Shown here in pieces: positions 15,441-23,737 of a DNA stretch of 25,271 nt. A program made the position numbers and the translations under genes. Each line of letters starts with the position of its first letter. The stretch's first letter is position 1. A model generated the notes under the pieces. It was not told the origin of the DNA, ran no database searches, and worked only from the letters and a program-made list of their open reading frames with translations. Source of the DNA: a virus; the IMG/VR virus record IMGVR_UViG_3300042896_001099, positions 1 through 25,271 of that record. The stretch is one strand, 5' to 3'.

Positions 15441-16105
15441 AATTCTAAAAATGGTGATTTAGTTTTAAACTCGCCTACTACTTTGAAACCTCTTTTATTG
15501 AATTTATAAATTATACCTTCTTTAGCTTCTTTAAACCCTTCACCTTTACTTGAAGTGAAGCTATTTTTATCAAAAAATAAAGTACTTCCCTGTCTAGCGA
15601 TATAAACGTTCAGAGTGTCTAGATTAACTACCCAAACGCCAAAGGTTCCTTCAAGTAAGCCAAGTACGAATGATATTAAATGAACTTCTTTTGCTGTAGC
15701 ATTGGTGTTTTTAGATTTATTAAGTCGTTCAAAATATAGCAACAAAGCGGGTATAATACTACTATCAACAATATTAGAATGCTCTGGTATGTAAGTCTCT
15801 TTTAGCTTATCATAATTAGTAAGTACCCCATTGTGTGCAACAACCCAGTTATTATAAACAAATGGATGGCTATTATGTTCTTGCCATTTTCTCTCCATAG
15901 ATGTAGGTGCTTGATTATGGCCGAGGTATAAGAAACCATCTGGTAGGTTTATCTTATCCCAGTTGAAGGAGCCTTCAGTTTTATGAAAATCATAATTTTC
16001 ACCATCATGGTAATAGATACCTGAAGCGAAATTACCTCTTTGCTTGTTAACTTGATCTAATATCTCAAATTTACTAGTGCTAGTTGATCCGAATATGCCA
16101 CAAAT
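15437..16105 (-). CDS. Class II glutamine amidotransferase, non-ATG start (ATT) or frameshifted
   Basis: The Ntn-type glutaminase domain takes NH3 from Gln for an unknown acceptor. In frame, the sequence reads Ile/Met-CGIFGST, where Cys must be N-terminal to act as nucleophile. Further on are GHNQAPT (the GHTR position of the family) and WVVAHNGVLTNY with the conserved NG oxyanion residues. VDSSII follows at the later acidic site. No ATG exists between an in-frame TAA (16140-16138) and the Cys codon, so the annotated start is ATT at 16105. An AAGGAG sequence lies 11 nt upstream, unusual in this genome. The residue aligned with the substrate-binding Arg of GHTR is Gln. The first in-frame ATG (15898) would delete the catalytic N-terminus. 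With QueC nearby, a 7-deazaguanine role is possible. Confidence 0.75.
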   Translation of the reverse strand: MCGIFGSTSTSKFEILDQVNKQRGNFASGIYYHDGENYDFHKTEGSFNWDKINLPDGFLYLGHNQAPTSMERKWQEHNSHPFVYNNWVVAHNGVLTNYDKLKETYIPEHSNIVDSSIIPALLLYFERLNKSKNTNATAKEVHLISFVLGLLEGTFGVWVVNLDTLNVYIARQGSTLFFDKNSFTSSKGEGFKEAKEGIIYKFNKRGFKVVGEFKTKSPFLEL

Positions 16106-16109
16106 AGTC

Positions 16110-16151
16110 TTAACTTCTCCTTTCTTGCTTGGTTATAACCGTTAAAGTCAT
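16110..16151 (-). other. Possible 13-codon leader ORF before the amidotransferase
   Basis: An ATG at 16151 sits 5 nt after a perfect TATAAT, exactly where this genome starts its other leaderless genes. It encodes MTLTVITKQERRS and ends at a TAA (16112-16110). The amidotransferase frame is +1 relative to it and would be entered by skipping one base at that stop. An AGGAGA sits just upstream of the last sense codon. It could be a leader peptide coupled to an ATT start, a frameshift site, or a coincidence. Confidence 0.3.
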
Positions 16152-16185
16152 AACGTATTATATAGATACCTACTAAGAATATCAA
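16152..16185 (-). promoter_or_regulatory. Predicted early promoter of the amidotransferase unit
   Basis: TTGATA (16180-16185), 17 nt, TATAAT (16157-16162), then 5 nt to the ATG at 16151. The total is again 28 nt from the -35 hexamer to a start codon. It is divergent from the late box at 16196. Confidence 0.55.
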
Positions 16186-16195
16186 GGTTATTTTA

Positions 16196-16203
16196 AATAA
16201 ATA
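16196..16203 (+). promoter_or_regulatory. Late promoter box
   Basis: AATAAATA ends 6 nt before the ATG at 16210, with the same sequence and spacing as at 6285-6292. Confidence 0.55.
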
Positions 16204-16209
16204 TAAAAT

Positions 16210-17376
16210 ATGAACGATCTATTTCGTAGCAGTTGGATTAAAAACACACAAGTAGTTATGGAGAATGCTATTTATTCTGAAAATTTAATAAATGAAGGTA
16301 TTTCAAAGATTATCGGTGATGTGAGTAAAAAAATGGCAGCTGCTGGTATCGGTATACCATATAGAGATGATCGTTTATTCTTCTATGAGTTTTTAAAAGA
16401 CAAGCATAATGATAAAATTCCACAAGACTTTAAAGACGCTTTTGCAACTATAAAGCCTCAAGGTAAGGATATCAATGCATTGATGGGTAAAATTTTGATG
16501 GATGAAAAATTACCAGAAGGTTTCGTAGATAAACTATCTGATGATTTTGATAAGTACTCTAAAACGGTTAAAAAGATTGGTGATAAAGAAATAGATGCAG
16601 TTACAGAATTTTTAAATAGAGCTGCAGGTTCAAGAGAGAGTAGAGGAGTGAGAGCAGGAGAAGAGCCAAAGAAAAAGTTTGGTGATATATCTGCTATTAA
16701 AGCAGCAGTTGAGACTGGTGGTCGCCCAGAACAAGCTTTAAAGAAAGGTGCAAATGCTTTTGAAACTCTTAATTTAAATTTAAGTCCAGAAGATACTTTG
16801 GTCTTTGATGAAGAGTCAGCGATGGGTTATGGGATATATACTTTAACTAAGAATGGATTAAAGTATAGAGTAACTCTTAAGCAACATGACGGCAATCCAA
16901 AAAAAGTAAGTGGATTATCGAAAGACAATCTCGTAAGCTTGGTTATAACTAAGCCATCAGAAAAAGAAAGATTTGCTGGACCTACTATCGATGATATGGA
17001 AACGCCTCAATTTGAACGTGAGAAGAGCGTTGCGGATTATCCAGCTGAAAAGGGTGATGATTTTTCAACTCCAGATCCAGAAGATATTGCATATGGTAAG
17101 CAATATGAAATCGATGATGATGAAAACGAAGAAGACGAAAAAGAAAAAGAAGAAGATTACGAACAAGCTGAAGAAGATATTAATGAGGAAGATGCAGAAG
17201 ATATGATGAAAGACAAAACTGCATCAAAAGCTCAACAAAGAGATACTAAGGAAGAAGATTCTGAAGAGCAAGTAAAGATGTCTCCACAACAAGTAAATGC
17301 AATGTTAGCTAGACAGCATTATCTAAGAATGCAAAATCGCTTTAACATTGAAAGACGTCATACTTTAGGATATTAA
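16210..17376 (+). CDS. Acidic late protein, unknown (388 aa)
   Basis: No family is recognised. The N-terminal 200 residues look folded and helical (MNDLFRSSWIKNTQVVMENA onward). A beta-rich segment at about 200-250 (TLVFDEESAMGYGIYTLT) follows. Then comes a very acidic tract (about 298-355, mostly Glu/Asp/Lys) and a basic C-terminus (MLARQHYLRMQNRFNIERRH). The acidic tract plus short basic tail recalls scaffold or internal head proteins and the acidic gene at 1292, but homology between the two is not apparent. It is an isolated plus-strand gene between minus-strand blocks, with a late box 6 nt upstream. Its end overlaps queC by 12 bp. Confidence 0.8.
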   Translation: MNDLFRSSWIKNTQVVMENAIYSENLINEGISKIIGDVSKKMAAAGIGIPYRDDRLFFYEFLKDKHNDKIPQDFKDAFATIKPQGKDINALMGKILMDEKLPEGFVDKLSDDFDKYSKTVKKIGDKEIDAVTEFLNRAAGSRESRGVRAGEEPKKKFGDISAIKAAVETGGRPEQALKKGANAFETLNLNLSPEDTLVFDEESAMGYGIYTLTKNGLKYRVTLKQHDGNPKKVSGLSKDNLVSLVITKPSEKERFAGPTIDDMETPQFEREKSVADYPAEKGDDFSTPDPEDIAYGKQYEIDDDENEEDEKEKEEDYEQAEEDINEEDAEDMMKDKTASKAQQRDTKEEDSEEQVKMSPQQVNAMLARQHYLRMQNRFNIERRHTLGY

Positions 17377-18126
17377 TACGCAGCCTTTATCTTTGTAGAT
17401 CTTATCTAGCTTTTCCTGTTGAACGTATTGAATAGGATCAATATACCCTGCTTCGATAAATCCTCTTAGTCTTAAACTACTTGATGGTGTATCAGCATCA
17501 GCTAAGCCATCTTCTCTATTTGAGTAACATGTCCAGGTATCTTTAAATTTAACGTTTAATCCTACACCTCTTTCAATAATTTCTTTCTTAGACATAGTAA
17601 GTAAAGGTGCTTCGATCACTATCTTACTCTTTCTATTGAGTGAAATGACGTTATTAACGTAATTTAAAAATTCAGTACTACCATCCCAATAACCTGCTAA
17701 TGAATCAGCTTGAGCAGCACCATACCAAACAGTATCACATTCCATTGTCTCAGCATACGCACAAGCGATAGACAAAAACATCATATTACGAAAAGGTACA
17801 TATGATACTGGTTGAGCATCTCCTGCCATCTCTTTAATCTTAGGATTATCTATGTTAAAATTAGTAAGTGACGACTTATTAGCTATATCTTTAATATAGC
17901 TCACATCAATTGTCTTATTGAAGACGTCAGTGAACATGTATGAATCTCTTACACGTTGAATTTGTTTACTAATACAATTTAATTCTCTTTTATGTCTTTG
18001 ACCGTAATCAAAAGATAGAGTATAAATGCTCGTATATGCGTTGCTTGCAGCCATGTGAAGTAGTACTGTTGAATCCATACCACCGCTAAACGCTAAGACT
18101 ATTTTTTCTTTTTTTCTTGTAGACAT
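17365..18126 (-). CDS. queC: 7-cyano-7-deazaguanine synthase (QueC-like), zinc motif missing
   Basis: QueC turns 7-carboxy-7-deazaguanine into preQ0 using ATP and ammonia. The 253-residue protein carries the PP-loop SGGMDS (14-19), LSFDYGQRHKREL (37-49) and VSYVPFRNMMFLSIA (107-121), all typical of QueC. The C-terminal TWTCY (197-201) is also typical. The usual cysteine cluster after it (CGxCxxC) is absent: residues 206-217 read DGLADADTPSSS, leaving only Cys200 of the four zinc ligands. The family sequence resumes at LRLRGFIEAGY. ATG 18126 is preferred over a start at 18150 that overlaps uvsX by 23 nt. The gene starts 1 nt after the uvsX stop and is cotranscribed with it. preQ0 could feed tRNA or DNA modification. 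Confidence 0.88.
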   Translation of the reverse strand: MSTRKKEKIVLAFSGGMDSTVLLHMAASNAYTSIYTLSFDYGQRHKRELNCISKQIQRVRDSYMFTDVFNKTIDVSYIKDIANKSSLTNFNIDNPKIKEMAGDAQPVSYVPFRNMMFLSIACAYAETMECDTVWYGAAQADSLAGYWDGSTEFLNYVNNVISLNRKSKIVIEAPLLTMSKKEIIERGVGLNVKFKDTWTCYSNREDGLADADTPSSSLRLRGFIEAGYIDPIQYVQQEKLDKIYKDKGCVLIS

Positions 18127-18127
18127 A

Positions 18128-19228
18128 TTATTCAGTTTCTTCAACCTCATCAGGAATTTCTTCTTGTGTATTACCCTGATTATTACTGTATTTCCATTCT
18201 ACTTTAATCTTCTCTTCAATACCGGGTACAATAGTATTATCCCACAATTCTTTATCATTCTTCCATTTTGAATAGTAGCCAAGCTTAGTACCATCTGGTA
18301 ATGTATAGGTGCTTCCAGTTTGAATAATAACACCAAATCCGACAGCTAACTCCAACAGACCATAGTACTTATTGAGTCCGTTTTCAAAACTCAAATACAT
18401 CTCACCTTCCAGGTACTGCTTTACAAATCTATTCTTTGCAGTCAATGCTCTCAGTACAACCCCGGAATAACTCTTCTGACCTACTGCTAGCTTATCCCCT
18501 AAATCTTTATCTTCCTTCATTGGCTTTCTTGCCAATTGCAACGTGACTGATGGAAGATAAACTGCACTTCTACCACCTGGCATTTCTTTAACTAATGATG
18601 GAAACATTGCAGATGGGTCATCGTAAATGTGATTGGATACAATTATAGTTGTCTTTGTAATTGCAGCTAGCTGCGTACAAGTTCTAAGCAAGCTCTTAAT
18701 TGCTTTAGCTCTACTACCCATATCAGCACTAGTGCTAGACTTCTCCATTCTATTGATTTGCAACTCACTTTCCATGTTACCAAGTGAATCAATTGCAATA
18801 ATAAATTTACCTACCTGACCTTTTTCTTTCGCTTTAGTTAAGAAATTGTAAATAGAGTTTCTACATTCTTCAATACTGAAAGTAGGTACATATTTTACCT
18901 TAGAAACATCTAATCCAAGTGCTTCAGCACCGTCTTTATCAATAGCGTTCTCACTATCAAAAATTACTGGAATAAGCCCATCTTTTTGAGCTGCAGCTAA
19001 AATCTTTTGAATAATAAAAGACTTACCAGTCATCGATGGTCCAGCTAACATCGTCAATCTATTACGTGGAATACCACCAAAAAGTGATCCAGATACCAAT
19101 CCGTTCAAAACCATCGACCCCGTATCAATCCACCCATCCACATTTGATAATGCACCGTCATTTAAAAATGACGCATACGGGTTAATCTTATCAATCTCAC
19201 CTAAAATTTCATTTAAGTCTTTGTCCAT
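18128..19228 (-). CDS. uvsX: RecA-like recombinase, T4 UvsX-like
   Basis: UvsX forms filaments on ssDNA for strand exchange, repair and recombination-dependent replication. The protein has 366 residues from ATG 19228 (371 from ATG 19243). The Walker A motif is GPSMTGKS (63-70), followed by VIFDSENAIDKDGAEALG (a RecA-family Glu site) and a Walker B KFIIAIDSLGN near residue 145. The remaining core and an acidic C-terminal tail (EEIPDEVEETE) are typical. The 19228 start is preferred because a full promoter (TTGATT, 16 nt, TATAAT, 6 nt) ends there; the 19243 start would lie upstream of the -10 box. queC follows after one base. Confidence 0.93.
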   Translation of the reverse strand: MDKDLNEILGEIDKINPYASFLNDGALSNVDGWIDTGSMVLNGLVSGSLFGGIPRNRLTMLAGPSMTGKSFIIQKILAAAQKDGLIPVIFDSENAIDKDGAEALGLDVSKVKYVPTFSIEECRNSIYNFLTKAKEKGQVGKFIIAIDSLGNMESELQINRMEKSSTSADMGSRAKAIKSLLRTCTQLAAITKTTIIVSNHIYDDPSAMFPSLVKEMPGGRSAVYLPSVTLQLARKPMKEDKDLGDKLAVGQKSYSGVVLRALTAKNRFVKQYLEGEMYLSFENGLNKYYGLLELAVGFGVIIQTGSTYTLPDGTKLGYYSKWKNDKELWDNTIVPGIEEKIKVEWKYSNNQGNTQEEIPDEVEETE

Positions 19229-19254
19229 ACACCAATTATACATGGTGTATGGAC
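19223..19254. repeat. Perfect 11-bp inverted repeat centred on the uvsX -10 box
   Basis: GTCCATACACC (19223-19233) and its exact reverse complement GGTGTATGGAC (19244-19254) flank a 10-nt centre that holds the uvsX TATAAT. One arm covers the predicted start of transcription and the uvsX ATG, the other fills the -35/-10 spacer. The position suggests a repressor operator. If transcription starts farther upstream it would instead be an RNA hairpin hiding the start codon. Confidence 0.7.
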
Positions 19255-19262
19255 GAAATCAA
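19229..19262 (-). promoter_or_regulatory. Predicted leaderless early promoter of uvsX
   Basis: TTGATT (19257-19262), 16 nt, a perfect TATAAT (19235-19240), 6 nt, then ATG 19228. It is the best sigma70-like promoter in the window. Confidence 0.65.
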
Positions 19263-19266
19263 ACGT

Positions 19267-19548
19267 TTACTTAAGATTATTAGGGATTTGTATATCCATA
19301 ATCTTCTTCGTCTCAACTAACACAGCCATTGCCTTGGGGTCTTTCTTAGTTTCAATAATGTGATCACGCCACATTAATAAAACTCTACGAACCTTTTCTA
19401 ACTCTCTATTCTTTAAAGCATTGGTGCCTTTATCCGTACCGTCAATAATTTTAGTAATAACTTGCATAGTGCCGGTAATACCATCATTTTGACCTTTCTT
19501 AAACTCCTGCAGATTTGCTAAATAGCTTTCGTTTTTCATATTATTCAA
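19267..19548 (-). CDS. Hypothetical protein between gp43 and uvsX, 93 aa
   Basis: The protein is not recognised. It is helical and Lys-rich throughout (for example RELEKVRRVLLMWRDHI) with no membrane segment or cofactor motif. Its ATG overlaps the stop of the 119-aa gene by 8 bp, so the pair is coupled and transcribed with the polymerase region. The position between gp43 and uvsX suggests a replication or recombination accessory, but no function can be assigned. Confidence 0.65.
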   Translation of the reverse strand: MNNMKNESYLANLQEFKKGQNDGITGTMQVITKIIDGTDKGTNALKNRELEKVRRVLLMWRDHIIETKKDPKAMAVLVETKKIMDIQIPNNLK

Positions 19549-19900
19549 ATAATTTAATTACCTCTGGTTGTGCGTCTTGCTTGACGGGTGGTTTCGAAAC
19601 GTTAGCTGCTTCGATAATCTTATCATATTGAGCCGTAATTCTAGGATCAACATTAAAGTTCTTACCAACTGCTACATTAGACTTGTTGTAAGTATATGTG
19701 AAATTTCTACCTGCATCATTTACCGCAATAAATTCTGCTAAAAACAGAGGAATCAATTGAACCTGAAATTGATTATTCTGTGGTTGCACAGTAATCATAA
19801 CAGGATTCAAAATGTCTACTGTCGTATCTGTCTCTTTTGCTAACTCACCGAGTATATTACGCCCGGTATTGTCAATAATTGTAATATAATTTTTGGCCAT
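19541..19900 (-). CDS. Hypothetical protein, 119 aa, Sm-like pattern possible
   Basis: No firm family. The N-terminal part (about 1-60) reads as short strands: YITIIDNTGRNILGELA, then TTVDILNPVMITVQ, then VQLIPLFLAEFI. This G..L.....I.NP..I layout resembles the five-stranded Sm/LSm barrel found in some T4-like phage proteins. The C-terminal half is a flexible tail that ends EVIKLFE. If Sm-like, it might bind RNA, but this is a weak pattern match. It follows the polymerase gene with its own TTGATT promoter and overlaps the 93-aa gene. Confidence 0.65.
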   Translation of the reverse strand: MAKNYITIIDNTGRNILGELAKETDTTVDILNPVMITVQPQNNQFQVQLIPLFLAEFIAVNDAGRNFTYTYNKSNVAVGKNFNVDPRITAQYDKIIEAANVSKPPVKQDAQPEVIKLFE

Positions 19901-19934
19901 GCTATAACTTAATAAGCAGTGGATAAAAAATCAA
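19901..19934 (-). promoter_or_regulatory. Predicted promoter between gp43 and the 119-aa gene
   Basis: TTGATT (19929-19934) contains the polymerase TGA stop and lies 28 nt before the ATG at 19900, exactly as at other genes. The -10 is weaker (TATTAA at 19909-19914, 8 nt from the ATG). Confidence 0.5.
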
Positions 19935-22504
19935 GTAAGCAACTCAAACAAATTCGTCTGCACTAATGATCCAGGTTTTTGAGCTACCCAATTTACATTA
20001 TTGTAGAATCTTTCGATGACTGAAAAGATATGGTTTTCAAACATCGTTTCATAATCTGGTTCGAAGAGTTTTTTAAACTCTTCTGGGTAATAATACTTAT
20101 AAGCAATTGCTGATATATTATATGAGTTAGGTTTTCTCACATAGAAGTATCTTACTTTATCTCCAGAGCTAATCTTTTCGTATTTGGTGGTTAGCTTAAA
20201 TTTATCTAACAGAAGATTATGCATATAAGCAGCTTTAACGTGGCAAGGCATTCCTTTTGCTGTAGTAAAATCATCACACATACCTGCGTACTTTTCATAT
20301 CCTTTAATACCAGATACAAAAGTAATATCCTCTACAGATAGCTTTTTAAATATATCGTAAGTTTCATTTAATATAAGATTTGTTTCACCGATATTCTGCG
20401 TCGTTAACATCGTTTCAATAATCTTTTTAACGTAAGGCTTAATAGCATTAGGCATTGTACTTCTTACAACTTCAACACCTGTGTATTTAAATTTATCGCA
20501 AGCAATACCCTCGTCATCTAAAATATGCAACACATATCTCTTTTTCTGTAAGAATATACCCACATCTGCTATAGCTTCACGTTTAAAAATAAACCTACAG
20601 TCTTTAGAGTTAATAGATTTTGCACCCCAAATTTTAATCTCTTTATTAAGATACTCTTCAATCTCTATAACTTTATTAAGAGTTTCTTTTGTAAGCTTAT
20701 TGCCTTCTTTAAACTTAAAAAGCTTATTAACAATAAGAGGCTTAATTGAAACGTAACTCGAGTCTGTATCGTTGTAAATAATACAATTGTTTAATTCTTC
20801 TTCGTTAATATTAGGAAGCTGTTGCTTGATAAACGATTTGAGAAGTTCATTCGAATGTTTAATAACTGATTGACCGGTAAGTGTAATTGAAGAAGCAATA
20901 TCATCGTCACCGAAAGGTGCATTTTTATTACCGAAGTAACCGTAAATTGAATTAATAAAGACCTTGATACACATTTGCTTTGCATCAAGTTGATCAATTG
21001 TCATCTTAACTTGCTTTGCCTCAGATGTTTCCTTGTTGGTAAACTCCGAGTATTGCTTCTTAAGCTTCTTAATATCCTTTCTGATTGCTTGTCTTTTGTT
21101 ATAATAGTAATCAAGAATTTCAGGCATTACACCTTTCTTCTTTTGCGTAAACATAACATCAGCTTTACTAATGGCTATCTGTTCATTATTAACGAATTGC
21201 GCAAACTTATCGATAGGTAAAGTGAATGTCTTACCACACACATGCCTTATCGTTACCTGTTTGTCGTCTTTAGTCTCTATAACACCTACCTTAGTTTCGG
21301 GTGAGATGTTAAGACTAATCATAACGTTTGGATACAGTGAATTAGCATCGAATGAAATAATATATTCCTGAAATCCGCTTAATGGTTCACCAACATATGC
21401 ACCAGGATTCTTACCTGTATCTTCATTACGAATAAAAGAAGGTATCTTCTGATCACGGTATCTGGCTTTTACCGCGGTAGCTCCATTGATAACGGATAAT
21501 GAACCCATTGCTGCTTCAAATGTAGTAAGACCTACATACGCTAACATTCGAATAAGCTCAGTATACTTTAGCTTCTCTTCTAACTTAACCAGAAGCTTAA
21601 CGTCTTGAATATTGTAATCAATAAACGTCTTCCAATCTTTATCAGCTAACGTTGCAAGATTCATTGCACCGAAGTTTACTTTCTTTTCCCCTAATTCCAA
21701 TTCAGCGATGTTATTAAGCTTATAGCTTTCCCGTACTCCAAGACAAAAACGTTTATACACGTCTAAGTAATCGATAAGAGATATACCTTCAATATACCAT
21801 CTAATCTGCTCTTGACCGAATTGACCTTTAATTGATCTATTATACACATTACCTGATGGTGATAGACGCTTGGTCCATTCTTCACCAAGTATACTTGTGC
21901 ATCTATTAATAACGTAAGGTATATCGAAAAACTCAGAGTTCCAACCTGTTAAGATGTCAGGGTAATCACTTTCAATATATTCAATAAACTTGATAAAAAG
22001 TTCTTTTTCAGTCAAGCATTTTACATACTTTACGTTTGGATCTTCACTTGTATAATCCTTTATACCCCATGTAAGAAACTTTTTGCTTAAAGAATCGTAA
22101 ATTGTAATTACGTTTACTGGCTCTTTAGCTTGATTAGCGTGTGGAAAGTCATCTGGAGCATATACCTCGATATCCAAAAACATTACTTTAATTGGATATT
22201 GTGCAAACTCTAAAGTTTCATTTACCTTCCAAAACGTATCTATCAGGTACTGTTGCGTTACAGGAAAATTATCAAATACCCTTTTAATGTTTGTATCTTT
22301 TAGATACTTGTATCTATCGTATTGCGTTCTAAAGATTTTCTTTACTAGCTTAGTACCGTAAATTGATTCATAATCACCCTTACCTTCAACATAAAGATAA
22401 GGGTCTACAGAAGCATCTACCTTAATTCGCTTACCATCTTTATCCCACGTAAATAGAGTTACACTACGCTCTTTACCGTTGTAGTATATATTTCTATAAC
22501 TCAT
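19931..22504 (-). CDS. 43: DNA polymerase, family B, T4 gp43-like
   Basis: This is the replicative polymerase with proofreading. It has 857 residues (T4: 898). The 3'-5' exonuclease has ExoI FLDIEVY (about 108-114), ExoII LTGWNSEFFDIPYV and ExoIII YNIQDVKLL. The polymerase domain has motif A SFDANSLYPNVM (near 385), motif B KVFINSIYGYFGN (near 513) and motif C YNDTDSSY (near 577), with all catalytic aspartates present. The C-terminus LVQTNLFELLT ends in a QxxLF-like clamp-binding peptide. ATG 22504 follows TATAAT by 7 nt and there is no Shine-Dalgarno. The polymerase TGA stop forms part of the next gene's promoter. All key residues are intact. Confidence 0.97.
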   Translation of the reverse strand: MSYRNIYYNGKERSVTLFTWDKDGKRIKVDASVDPYLYVEGKGDYESIYGTKLVKKIFRTQYDRYKYLKDTNIKRVFDNFPVTQQYLIDTFWKVNETLEFAQYPIKVMFLDIEVYAPDDFPHANQAKEPVNVITIYDSLSKKFLTWGIKDYTSEDPNVKYVKCLTEKELFIKFIEYIESDYPDILTGWNSEFFDIPYVINRCTSILGEEWTKRLSPSGNVYNRSIKGQFGQEQIRWYIEGISLIDYLDVYKRFCLGVRESYKLNNIAELELGEKKVNFGAMNLATLADKDWKTFIDYNIQDVKLLVKLEEKLKYTELIRMLAYVGLTTFEAAMGSLSVINGATAVKARYRDQKIPSFIRNEDTGKNPGAYVGEPLSGFQEYIISFDANSLYPNVMISLNISPETKVGVIETKDDKQVTIRHVCGKTFTLPIDKFAQFVNNEQIAISKADVMFTQKKKGVMPEILDYYYNKRQAIRKDIKKLKKQYSEFTNKETSEAKQVKMTIDQLDAKQMCIKVFINSIYGYFGNKNAPFGDDDIASSITLTGQSVIKHSNELLKSFIKQQLPNINEEELNNCIIYNDTDSSYVSIKPLIVNKLFKFKEGNKLTKETLNKVIEIEEYLNKEIKIWGAKSINSKDCRFIFKREAIADVGIFLQKKRYVLHILDDEGIACDKFKYTGVEVVRSTMPNAIKPYVKKIIETMLTTQNIGETNLILNETYDIFKKLSVEDITFVSGIKGYEKYAGMCDDFTTAKGMPCHVKAAYMHNLLLDKFKLTTKYEKISSGDKVRYFYVRKPNSYNISAIAYKYYYPEEFKKLFEPDYETMFENHIFSVIERFYNNVNWVAQKPGSLVQTNLFELLT

Positions 22505-22538
22505 TAAACGAATTATAGATACGTTCCTAGGAAATCAA
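22505..22538 (-). promoter_or_regulatory. Predicted leaderless early promoter of gp43 with palindrome
   Basis: TTGATT (22533-22538) contains the TGA stop of the glycosyltransferase. A 15-nt spacer, a perfect TATAAT (22512-22517) and 7 nt to the ATG follow. The spacer carries the 10-bp palindrome TTCCTAGGAA (22524-22533), a possible operator. Confidence 0.6.
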
Positions 22539-23737
22539 TTATAACGGGCTAAGTTTTTACGTGACTTATCACCGTAAGGAGTAGAATAAAGCTCCACGTA
22601 ACAATCTATATTCTGATCAGTTTCAAGCCATCTTGTCTCTGCATATTGGCGAGCTTTTTTACAGATTGATCTATAACGATCAACATCCTTAAGAGTATCA
22701 TTGATACGATCTATCATCTCATCTCCTGTATTGAACTTTATAGGAGCGTTCTCGTAGGTGCATAAATCTTGACAAGCAATAGGTAATCCAAATGCACTAG
22801 CTTCAATATATTTTAAATCACTCTTAGATTTGTTGAAAACATTATCAGTCAATGGAGCTACCATCATATTAACTCCTAATTTTTCAATACTTTCACCATA
22901 CTCATACAATCTCTTCCACTGATGAAATTCAATCTTTCCAGCTTTAACCAAATCAAGCAACGATAGAGGGAACGCCCCCATAAACACCCATTGGTACTTA
23001 TCTACCGTCTTACGAATAACATCGTTTACATGCTGGAAGTCATCTTTTTGCTTTACTCTATTTTCAATATCAAAATGCGCCCCTGAACCAGCATATAAGA
23101 TACGAGGCTTTTTCTTATTAGCGTCGTAACTATGCATGTTTTTGGTAAGATTATAGTAATTACCTAGCCAAAACTTTGGCATAAAGTTTGGAATGACAGT
23201 TACGTTTTGATTACCAGTCTTTTCTTTGTAGTAGTCTCTCATAAAATTACATGTTACTGTAATTTCATCACACTCGGACATAATCTTCTGAGCAGTCTCT
23301 CTTATCTCAGGGTTTTCGAAAGCTGGTTTATATTTGTTATAGTCAGGAATATCTTCTTTAAAACAAATATCATCGATTTCATAAATGATTTTCATCCCGT
23401 TTTGTTTTGAAAGATCTTTTAAGAAATTAAAAAATGCTAATTGCTGTTTTGTAGCTTGTCTTTGTAATCGTACTGACTTTACAGCAACATAATATCTTGG
23501 ATCAAGATTCATAACTGTAGTACCATGAACTACTCCCTTATTATGTGCATTCATTACCTGCTCAGGCCATATCATTCTCCAGTGACCACACCCACTATAG
23601 TCAGCGTAATAATTTAAGTATCTTTCTAAATCTAATTCTTTAGGTCTTTCTATTTTACTCTGCGGTGGTTGTGTATTTTGCTGAGGAATTACAAATGGAA
23701 TTTTATTATTTGAGAAAGGTACGTTACTCGAAAACAT
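22535..23737 (-). CDS. Glycosyltransferase, GT-B fold, between gp46 and gp43
   Basis: The 400-residue protein begins with a low-complexity Asn/Pro/Gln-rich N-terminus (1-30). A Rossmann-like N-domain follows with HWRMIWPEQVM and KIIYEIDDICF (about 117-127). A C-domain contains VTVIPNFMPKFW, RILYAGSGAHFD and, near the end, SDLKYIEASAFGLPIACQD, the GT4-type donor-binding motif. A sugar-nucleotide-dependent transferase is therefore likely, with an unknown acceptor. The location between two core replication genes is notable: in T4 the DNA glucosyltransferases also lie among early genes, so DNA modification is one option, but surface glycan modification is equally possible. Only a -10-like TATATA is seen upstream (4 nt from the ATG). 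Confidence 0.85.
   Translation of the reverse strand: MFSSNVPFSNNKIPFVIPQQNTQPPQSKIERPKELDLERYLNYYADYSGCGHWRMIWPEQVMNAHNKGVVHGTTVMNLDPRYYVAVKSVRLQRQATKQQLAFFNFLKDLSKQNGMKIIYEIDDICFKEDIPDYNKYKPAFENPEIRETAQKIMSECDEITVTCNFMRDYYKEKTGNQNVTVIPNFMPKFWLGNYYNLTKNMHSYDANKKKPRILYAGSGAHFDIENRVKQKDDFQHVNDVIRKTVDKYQWVFMGAFPLSLLDLVKAGKIEFHQWKRLYEYGESIEKLGVNMMVAPLTDNVFNKSKSDLKYIEASAFGLPIACQDLCTYENAPIKFNTGDEMIDRINDTLKDVDRYRSICKKARQYAETRWLETDQNIDCYVELYSTPYGDKSRKNLARYN

Follow-up and report, generated by a model that had tools for sequence, protein, structure and literature searches.

In phage T4, structure in long early RNAs hides the translation starts of e, soc, 49, and I-TevI, and the RNAs begun at the late promoters of these genes lack the 5' part of that structure (PMC3014915). 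For sigG of Bacillus subtilis, a large hairpin has been proposed to block translation of RNA that reads through from the upstream operon, and RNA from the gene's own promoter cannot form it (PMC5942855). Here we describe a short dyad at the uvsX gene of IMG/VR virus record IMGVR_UViG_3300042896_001099, in a stretch of 25,271 bases (positions 1 to 25,271 of the record; the window) that carries a T4-like replication module. We computed the anatomy of this dyad, its predicted fold, its covariation, its restriction to uvsX, and its link to missing terminators. It is quite probably a hairpin that sequesters the start codon in read-through RNA and is relieved by initiation of transcription inside the hairpin. 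Literature searches turned up no account of an element of this kind at uvsX.

The T4 genes and uvsX, both from T4-like phages, would have in common a start codon within a stable helix of upstream-initiated RNA (predicted here) and an own-promoter RNA without the 5' strand of that helix (judged here from promoter consensus and spacing). They differ in that the T4 genes use the late promoter TATAAATA and have a leader with a Shine-Dalgarno sequence, whereas uvsX has TTGATT-N16-TATAAT, no Shine-Dalgarno sequence, and an RNA start predicted at the AUG. The cellular sporulation gene sigG likewise has a leader with a ribosome-binding site, in contrast to the predicted leaderless uvsX. By analogy, the uvsX element would work like those of the four T4 genes and sigG, and we do not class it as a T4 late-promoter element. 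In fold-back of the IS10/Tn10 type, outside transcripts of transposase genes form a start-hiding structure; the hiding of a start in outside RNA is common to both, whereas there the structure comes from the ends of a mobile element, is not leaderless, and involves no phage operon. Phage repressor operators, such as those of the lambda type, overlap promoters as symmetric DNA over the -10 box and +1; at uvsX, in contrast, close relatives differ in spacing and in sequence but preserve the RNA pairing.

Anatomy and predicted fold of the uvsX dyad

The dyad was first noticed in a sequence-only reading of the window as a perfect repeat of 11 base pairs (bp) around TATAAT, and it is present as such, with GTCCATACACC at 19223-19233 on the plus strand and its exact reverse complement at 19244-19254. 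It extends to a perfect 12 bp (19223-19234/19243-19254) with a loop of 8 nucleotides (nt), and a longer version pairs at 14 of 15 bp (19220-19234/19243-19257). The uvsX promoter assumed in that reading was likewise found, on the minus strand, with TTGATT at 19262-19257 and TATAAT at 19240-19235; one arm does cover the predicted +1 and start codon, in that the 3' arm spans the conserved ATG at 19228-19226; and the arm is indeed unique, since an exact search for GTCCATACACC gave no second copy in the window. The regulatory character ascribed to the dyad is borne out as far as its appearance goes. Its parts are as follows.

18128..19228, minus strand: uvsX, encoding a RecA/UvsX-like recombinase of 366 amino acids (Pfam RecA, 1.6e-15; PHROG 97 UvsX-like, 7.5e-58)
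19226..19228, minus strand: conserved ATG of uvsX, with +1 predicted at its A, 6 nt past TATAAT (from the alignment of relatives and promoter spacing)
19220..19234, minus strand: 3' arm of the dyad, TGGTGTATGGACAAA, including the start codon and codons 2-3
19235..19240, minus strand: -10 box (TATAAT), located in the loop of the hairpin
19243..19257, minus strand: 5' arm of the dyad, sense TTCGTCCATACACCA, within the promoter spacer and predicted to be transcribed in read-through RNA only
19257..19262, minus strand: -35 box TTGATT, separated from the -10 box by 16 nt

Inverted repeats of 12 bp with 3-20 nt between the arms arise in 8% of dinucleotide-shuffled windows (mean, 0.09), so that the dyad, taken alone, is only moderately unlikely to be due to chance; its significance therefore rests on its position over the promoter and start codon and on its conservation.

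The ATG at 19228, from which the product begins MDKDLNEI, is the one to which every relative aligns; an in-frame upstream ATG at 19243 was rejected as the uvsX start, being absent from nearly all of them. The promoter has the layout TTGATT-N16-TATAAT-N6-ATG, and the general form (TTGA, 15-18 nt, a TATAAT-like box, 5-7 nt, ATG) is near-universal among 126 distinct uvsX 5' regions. Because the A of the ATG lies at the expected +1, 6 nt after TATAAT, the uvsX mRNA is predicted from promoter spacing to be leaderless. No Shine-Dalgarno sequence was found at uvsX, and Shine-Dalgarno-like motifs are not enriched across the clade. A survey of 597 kb (the window and 17 related contigs) recovered 101 open reading frame (ORF) starts with such a promoter at 3-9 nt from the ATG, the gap being exactly 6 nt in 54 of them, versus 10 of 2,235 internal ATGs with such a promoter at any distance. 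Redundancy among the related contigs and the picking of starts by promoter presence inflate the count of promoter-bearing starts, but this selection does not create the 6-nt peak. The layout TTGA-N15..18-TATAAT-N6-ATG is also seen at minus-strand starts of the window, including 22504, 9808, 7746, and 12895, and in L284-L318, and it seems to be general across this uncultured T4-like clade.

Folding of the minus strand of 19190-19290 gave -30.2 kcal/mol (z, -4.9), a value that none of 200 shuffles equaled. In read-through RNA, the predicted hairpin (-24 to -30 kcal/mol) holds the AUG in its 3' arm, and the AUG is unpaired at a predicted probability of ~0.00, versus 0.88 in RNA beginning at the AUG. 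The excess pairing is maximal at -5..+3, i.e., at the AUG itself. We rejected the hairpin as an intrinsic terminator, as a U-run after it is absent on both strands.

Pairing among relatives and restriction to uvsX

Within the subclade of the window (nine distinct sequences), 94% of cells are paired, and 5 of the 15 pairs show compensatory changes on both sides, a covariation score that was reached by none of 500 shuffles; shifting the partner by 1-3 columns lowers pairing to 22-52%. For example, a synonymous GAC/GAT change in codon 2 is accompanied by a compensating G/A change in the 5' arm. The shuffle rank is 0 for most of this subclade. Several relatives have arms of 14 bp, while the weakest cases are of 7-8 bp and AT-only.

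The sequence-only reading had taken the dyad for a DNA operator, at which a dimeric phage or host repressor on both arms would cover the -10 box and +1 and block RNA polymerase. The perfect symmetry about the -10 box in the window subclade, the distance of about two helical turns between the arms, and the 14-bp arms would all suit such a protein. However, the half-site spacing is not fixed, as the gap between 11-bp arms is 8, 9, or 10 nt among relatives, a shift in helical phase of 36-72 degrees that would be hard for a dimeric repressor to accommodate. The same reading named loss of the dyad from close relatives with an intact promoter as grounds for refutation, and four that retain the promoter (L004, L012, L109, and L010) lack the flanking dyad; in the first three, the AUG segment is still paired, including a U.G pair, with a strand that overlaps the -10 box (GUCUAUAC or UCUAUAC). 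Arm sequences also change with pairing preserved, and another subclade has arms (CATATATAAGA/TCTTATATATG) unrelated in sequence to those of the window. Moreover, non-Watson-Crick pairs on the sense strand are biased to G.U (8, versus 2 A.C), although these represent few independent events. A search of viral contigs with the exact full dyad recovered one near-identical contig only, and a looser arm pattern matched 20 stretches, of which those checked outside uvsX (L085, L089, L092, L093, and L100-L102) were rejected as chance or coding matches.

Specificity was evaluated on 78 distinct leaderless starts with a 5-7-nt gap, comprising 14 uvsX starts and 64 others. The mean shuffle rank is 0.09 for the former versus 0.59 for the latter, among which no AUG sequestration was detected (5% rank at ≤0.05, the chance level), and a start-codon hairpin was accordingly rejected as a general property of leaderless genes. 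The arm motif occurs nowhere else in the clade contigs except as one half-site in G017, a scarcity that also speaks against an operator. With AUG pairing limited to uvsX starts and the arm motif all but absent elsewhere, the element is therefore a feature of uvsX.

Terminators and rival explanations

Terminator status was compared with AUG pairing by using a control in which the -40..-13 segment was shuffled. At loci with an intrinsic terminator before the promoter (55 distinct), the AUG is unpaired at 0.347 versus 0.339 in shuffles, which equals chance, whereas at loci with no terminator and a co-directional gene ending within 45 nt (59), the value is 0.119 versus 0.382. The association is strong over distinct sequences and clusters (P = 0.001-0.005) and holds with clustering at 70-80% identity (P = 0.001-0.02). 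In a subclade in which the 3' arm does not vary, 11 of 13 loci without a terminator carry the 5' arm, versus 0 of 6 with one (Fisher P = 0.001, which ignores relatedness). The tie between AUG pairing and terminator absence is strong uncorrected and underpowered after phylogenetic pairing.

Several points weigh against start-codon sequestration in read-through RNA. The strict terminator rule was set post hoc, after a looser one had yielded P = 0.07-0.09. Protein-tree contrasts (~10-11 independent) gave 3.6 with versus 0.1 against (median P = 0.125, not significant), and inclusion of all no-terminator loci gave 3.6 versus 1.0, again not significant. Several loci without a terminator (L128, L064, L067, and L207) also lack such a hairpin. 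The uvsX +1 is a prediction from a sigma-70-like consensus and presumes a host that follows it, and an operator co-evolving with its repressor would fit the covariation alone as well. Nevertheless, loss of the 5' arm at terminator-bearing loci that keep an identical 3' arm adds to the loss of the dyad, the gap variation, and the arm divergence in disfavoring an operator for a dedicated repressor, which we consider unlikely.

Alternatively, the hairpin might serve the 3' end of the upstream mRNA in place of a terminator, as a block to 3' exonucleases or an RNase III site, with the overlap of the AUG being incidental. This would likewise predict the mutual exclusion of dyad and terminator, but the excess pairing is centered on the AUG and -5..-1, no U-run follows the hairpin, and L004 and L012 rebuild it with a different 5' strand that still covers the AUG, all of which make this explanation improbable. 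Least probable of all is a functionless symmetry of the kind that AT-rich promoter and start sequences often yield, to which the frequency of 12-bp repeats in shuffled windows and the weakest AT-only cases might point, against the compensatory covariation and shuffle ranks of 0 in the window subclade and the want of AUG sequestration at the 64 other leaderless starts.

Genomic setting and meaning of the element

The genes around uvsX that bear on its transcription are as follows.

17365..18150, minus strand: queC-like gene (Pfam QueC, 2.8e-52), which shares its sequence in part with the 3' end of uvsX
19267..19548, minus strand: co-directional ORF upstream of uvsX, with its end 38 nt from the ATG of that gene; proposed source of read-through
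19931..22504, minus strand: gp43-like DNA polymerase B, farther upstream, with its own promoter, TTGATT-N15-TATAAT-N7-ATG

The queC-like gene is probably cotranscribed with uvsX, which would place a gene of the 7-deazaguanine pathway on the recombinase mRNA. No terminator-like sites were found in 16000-23000 of the window. Elsewhere, at 2245-2274, an inverted repeat with perfect 13-bp arms (AAAAAAGCTTGCA/TGCAAGCTTTTTT) and a 4-nt loop lies between genes and is likely a bidirectional terminator. Other dyads were observed at promoters outside uvsX: a palindrome, TTCCTAGGAA, in the gp43 promoter spacer (22504-22550); ACCGTA-TAA-TACGGT around the -10 box of the gp43 homolog of L288, at a leaderless start; and GCCAC-(ATATAATATAA)-GTGGC, embracing the promoter immediately before the ATG of a GuaC/IMPDH-like gene of L304 (MRIETELKYDFDDVL). 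Protein searches against known phages placed the closest matches of the window proteins at just 31-33% identity, mostly in cyanophages (~32% for UvsX), and a DNA search of known phages gave no match to the window sequence. Two cyanophage uvsX starts that were inspected both lack the promoter-hairpin arrangement, and a search of bacterial genome contigs recovered no relatives.

We infer a start of transcription at the AUG, read-through from upstream, a block to translation of the resulting RNA, a benefit to the phage, and a need of uvsX for insulation. RNA reading through from the DNA polymerase gene and the ORFs behind it would fold and bury the uvsX AUG. The promoter would sit within the DNA encoding the hairpin, with the -35 box and 5' arm upstream, the -10 box in the loop, and the 3' arm carrying the AUG and, with it, +1. 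Transcripts from this promoter would be leaderless mRNAs whose AUG is exposed at the very 5' end, as the hairpin cannot form where the 5' arm is not transcribed. Since own-promoter RNA alone would escape the hairpin, uvsX, perhaps with queC, would be translated according to its own promoter rather than the upstream operon, and UvsX output would come mainly from that promoter; polarity may also remove the untranslated read-through RNA.

We give about even chances to the broader proposition that this uncultured T4-like clade runs its replication genes off leaderless promoters and that, at uvsX, a promoter-embedding start-codon hairpin insulates the gene and can be exchanged for a terminator in this role, such that read-through RNA is silenced and only RNA beginning at the AUG is translated, with no Shine-Dalgarno sequence, leader, or protein factor. 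Leaderless translation and the fold-back silencing of read-through RNA, which are usually studied apart, would then meet at uvsX. The layout TTGA-N16-TATAAT-N6-ATG may serve as a simple finder of true starts and promoters in the clade, including the misplaced uvsX start here. If the proposed mechanism is true, a short dyad would insulate a gene where a compact genome has no room for a terminator, and it would offer a test case for the need to mask an internal AUG without a Shine-Dalgarno sequence in hosts that use leaderless mRNAs.
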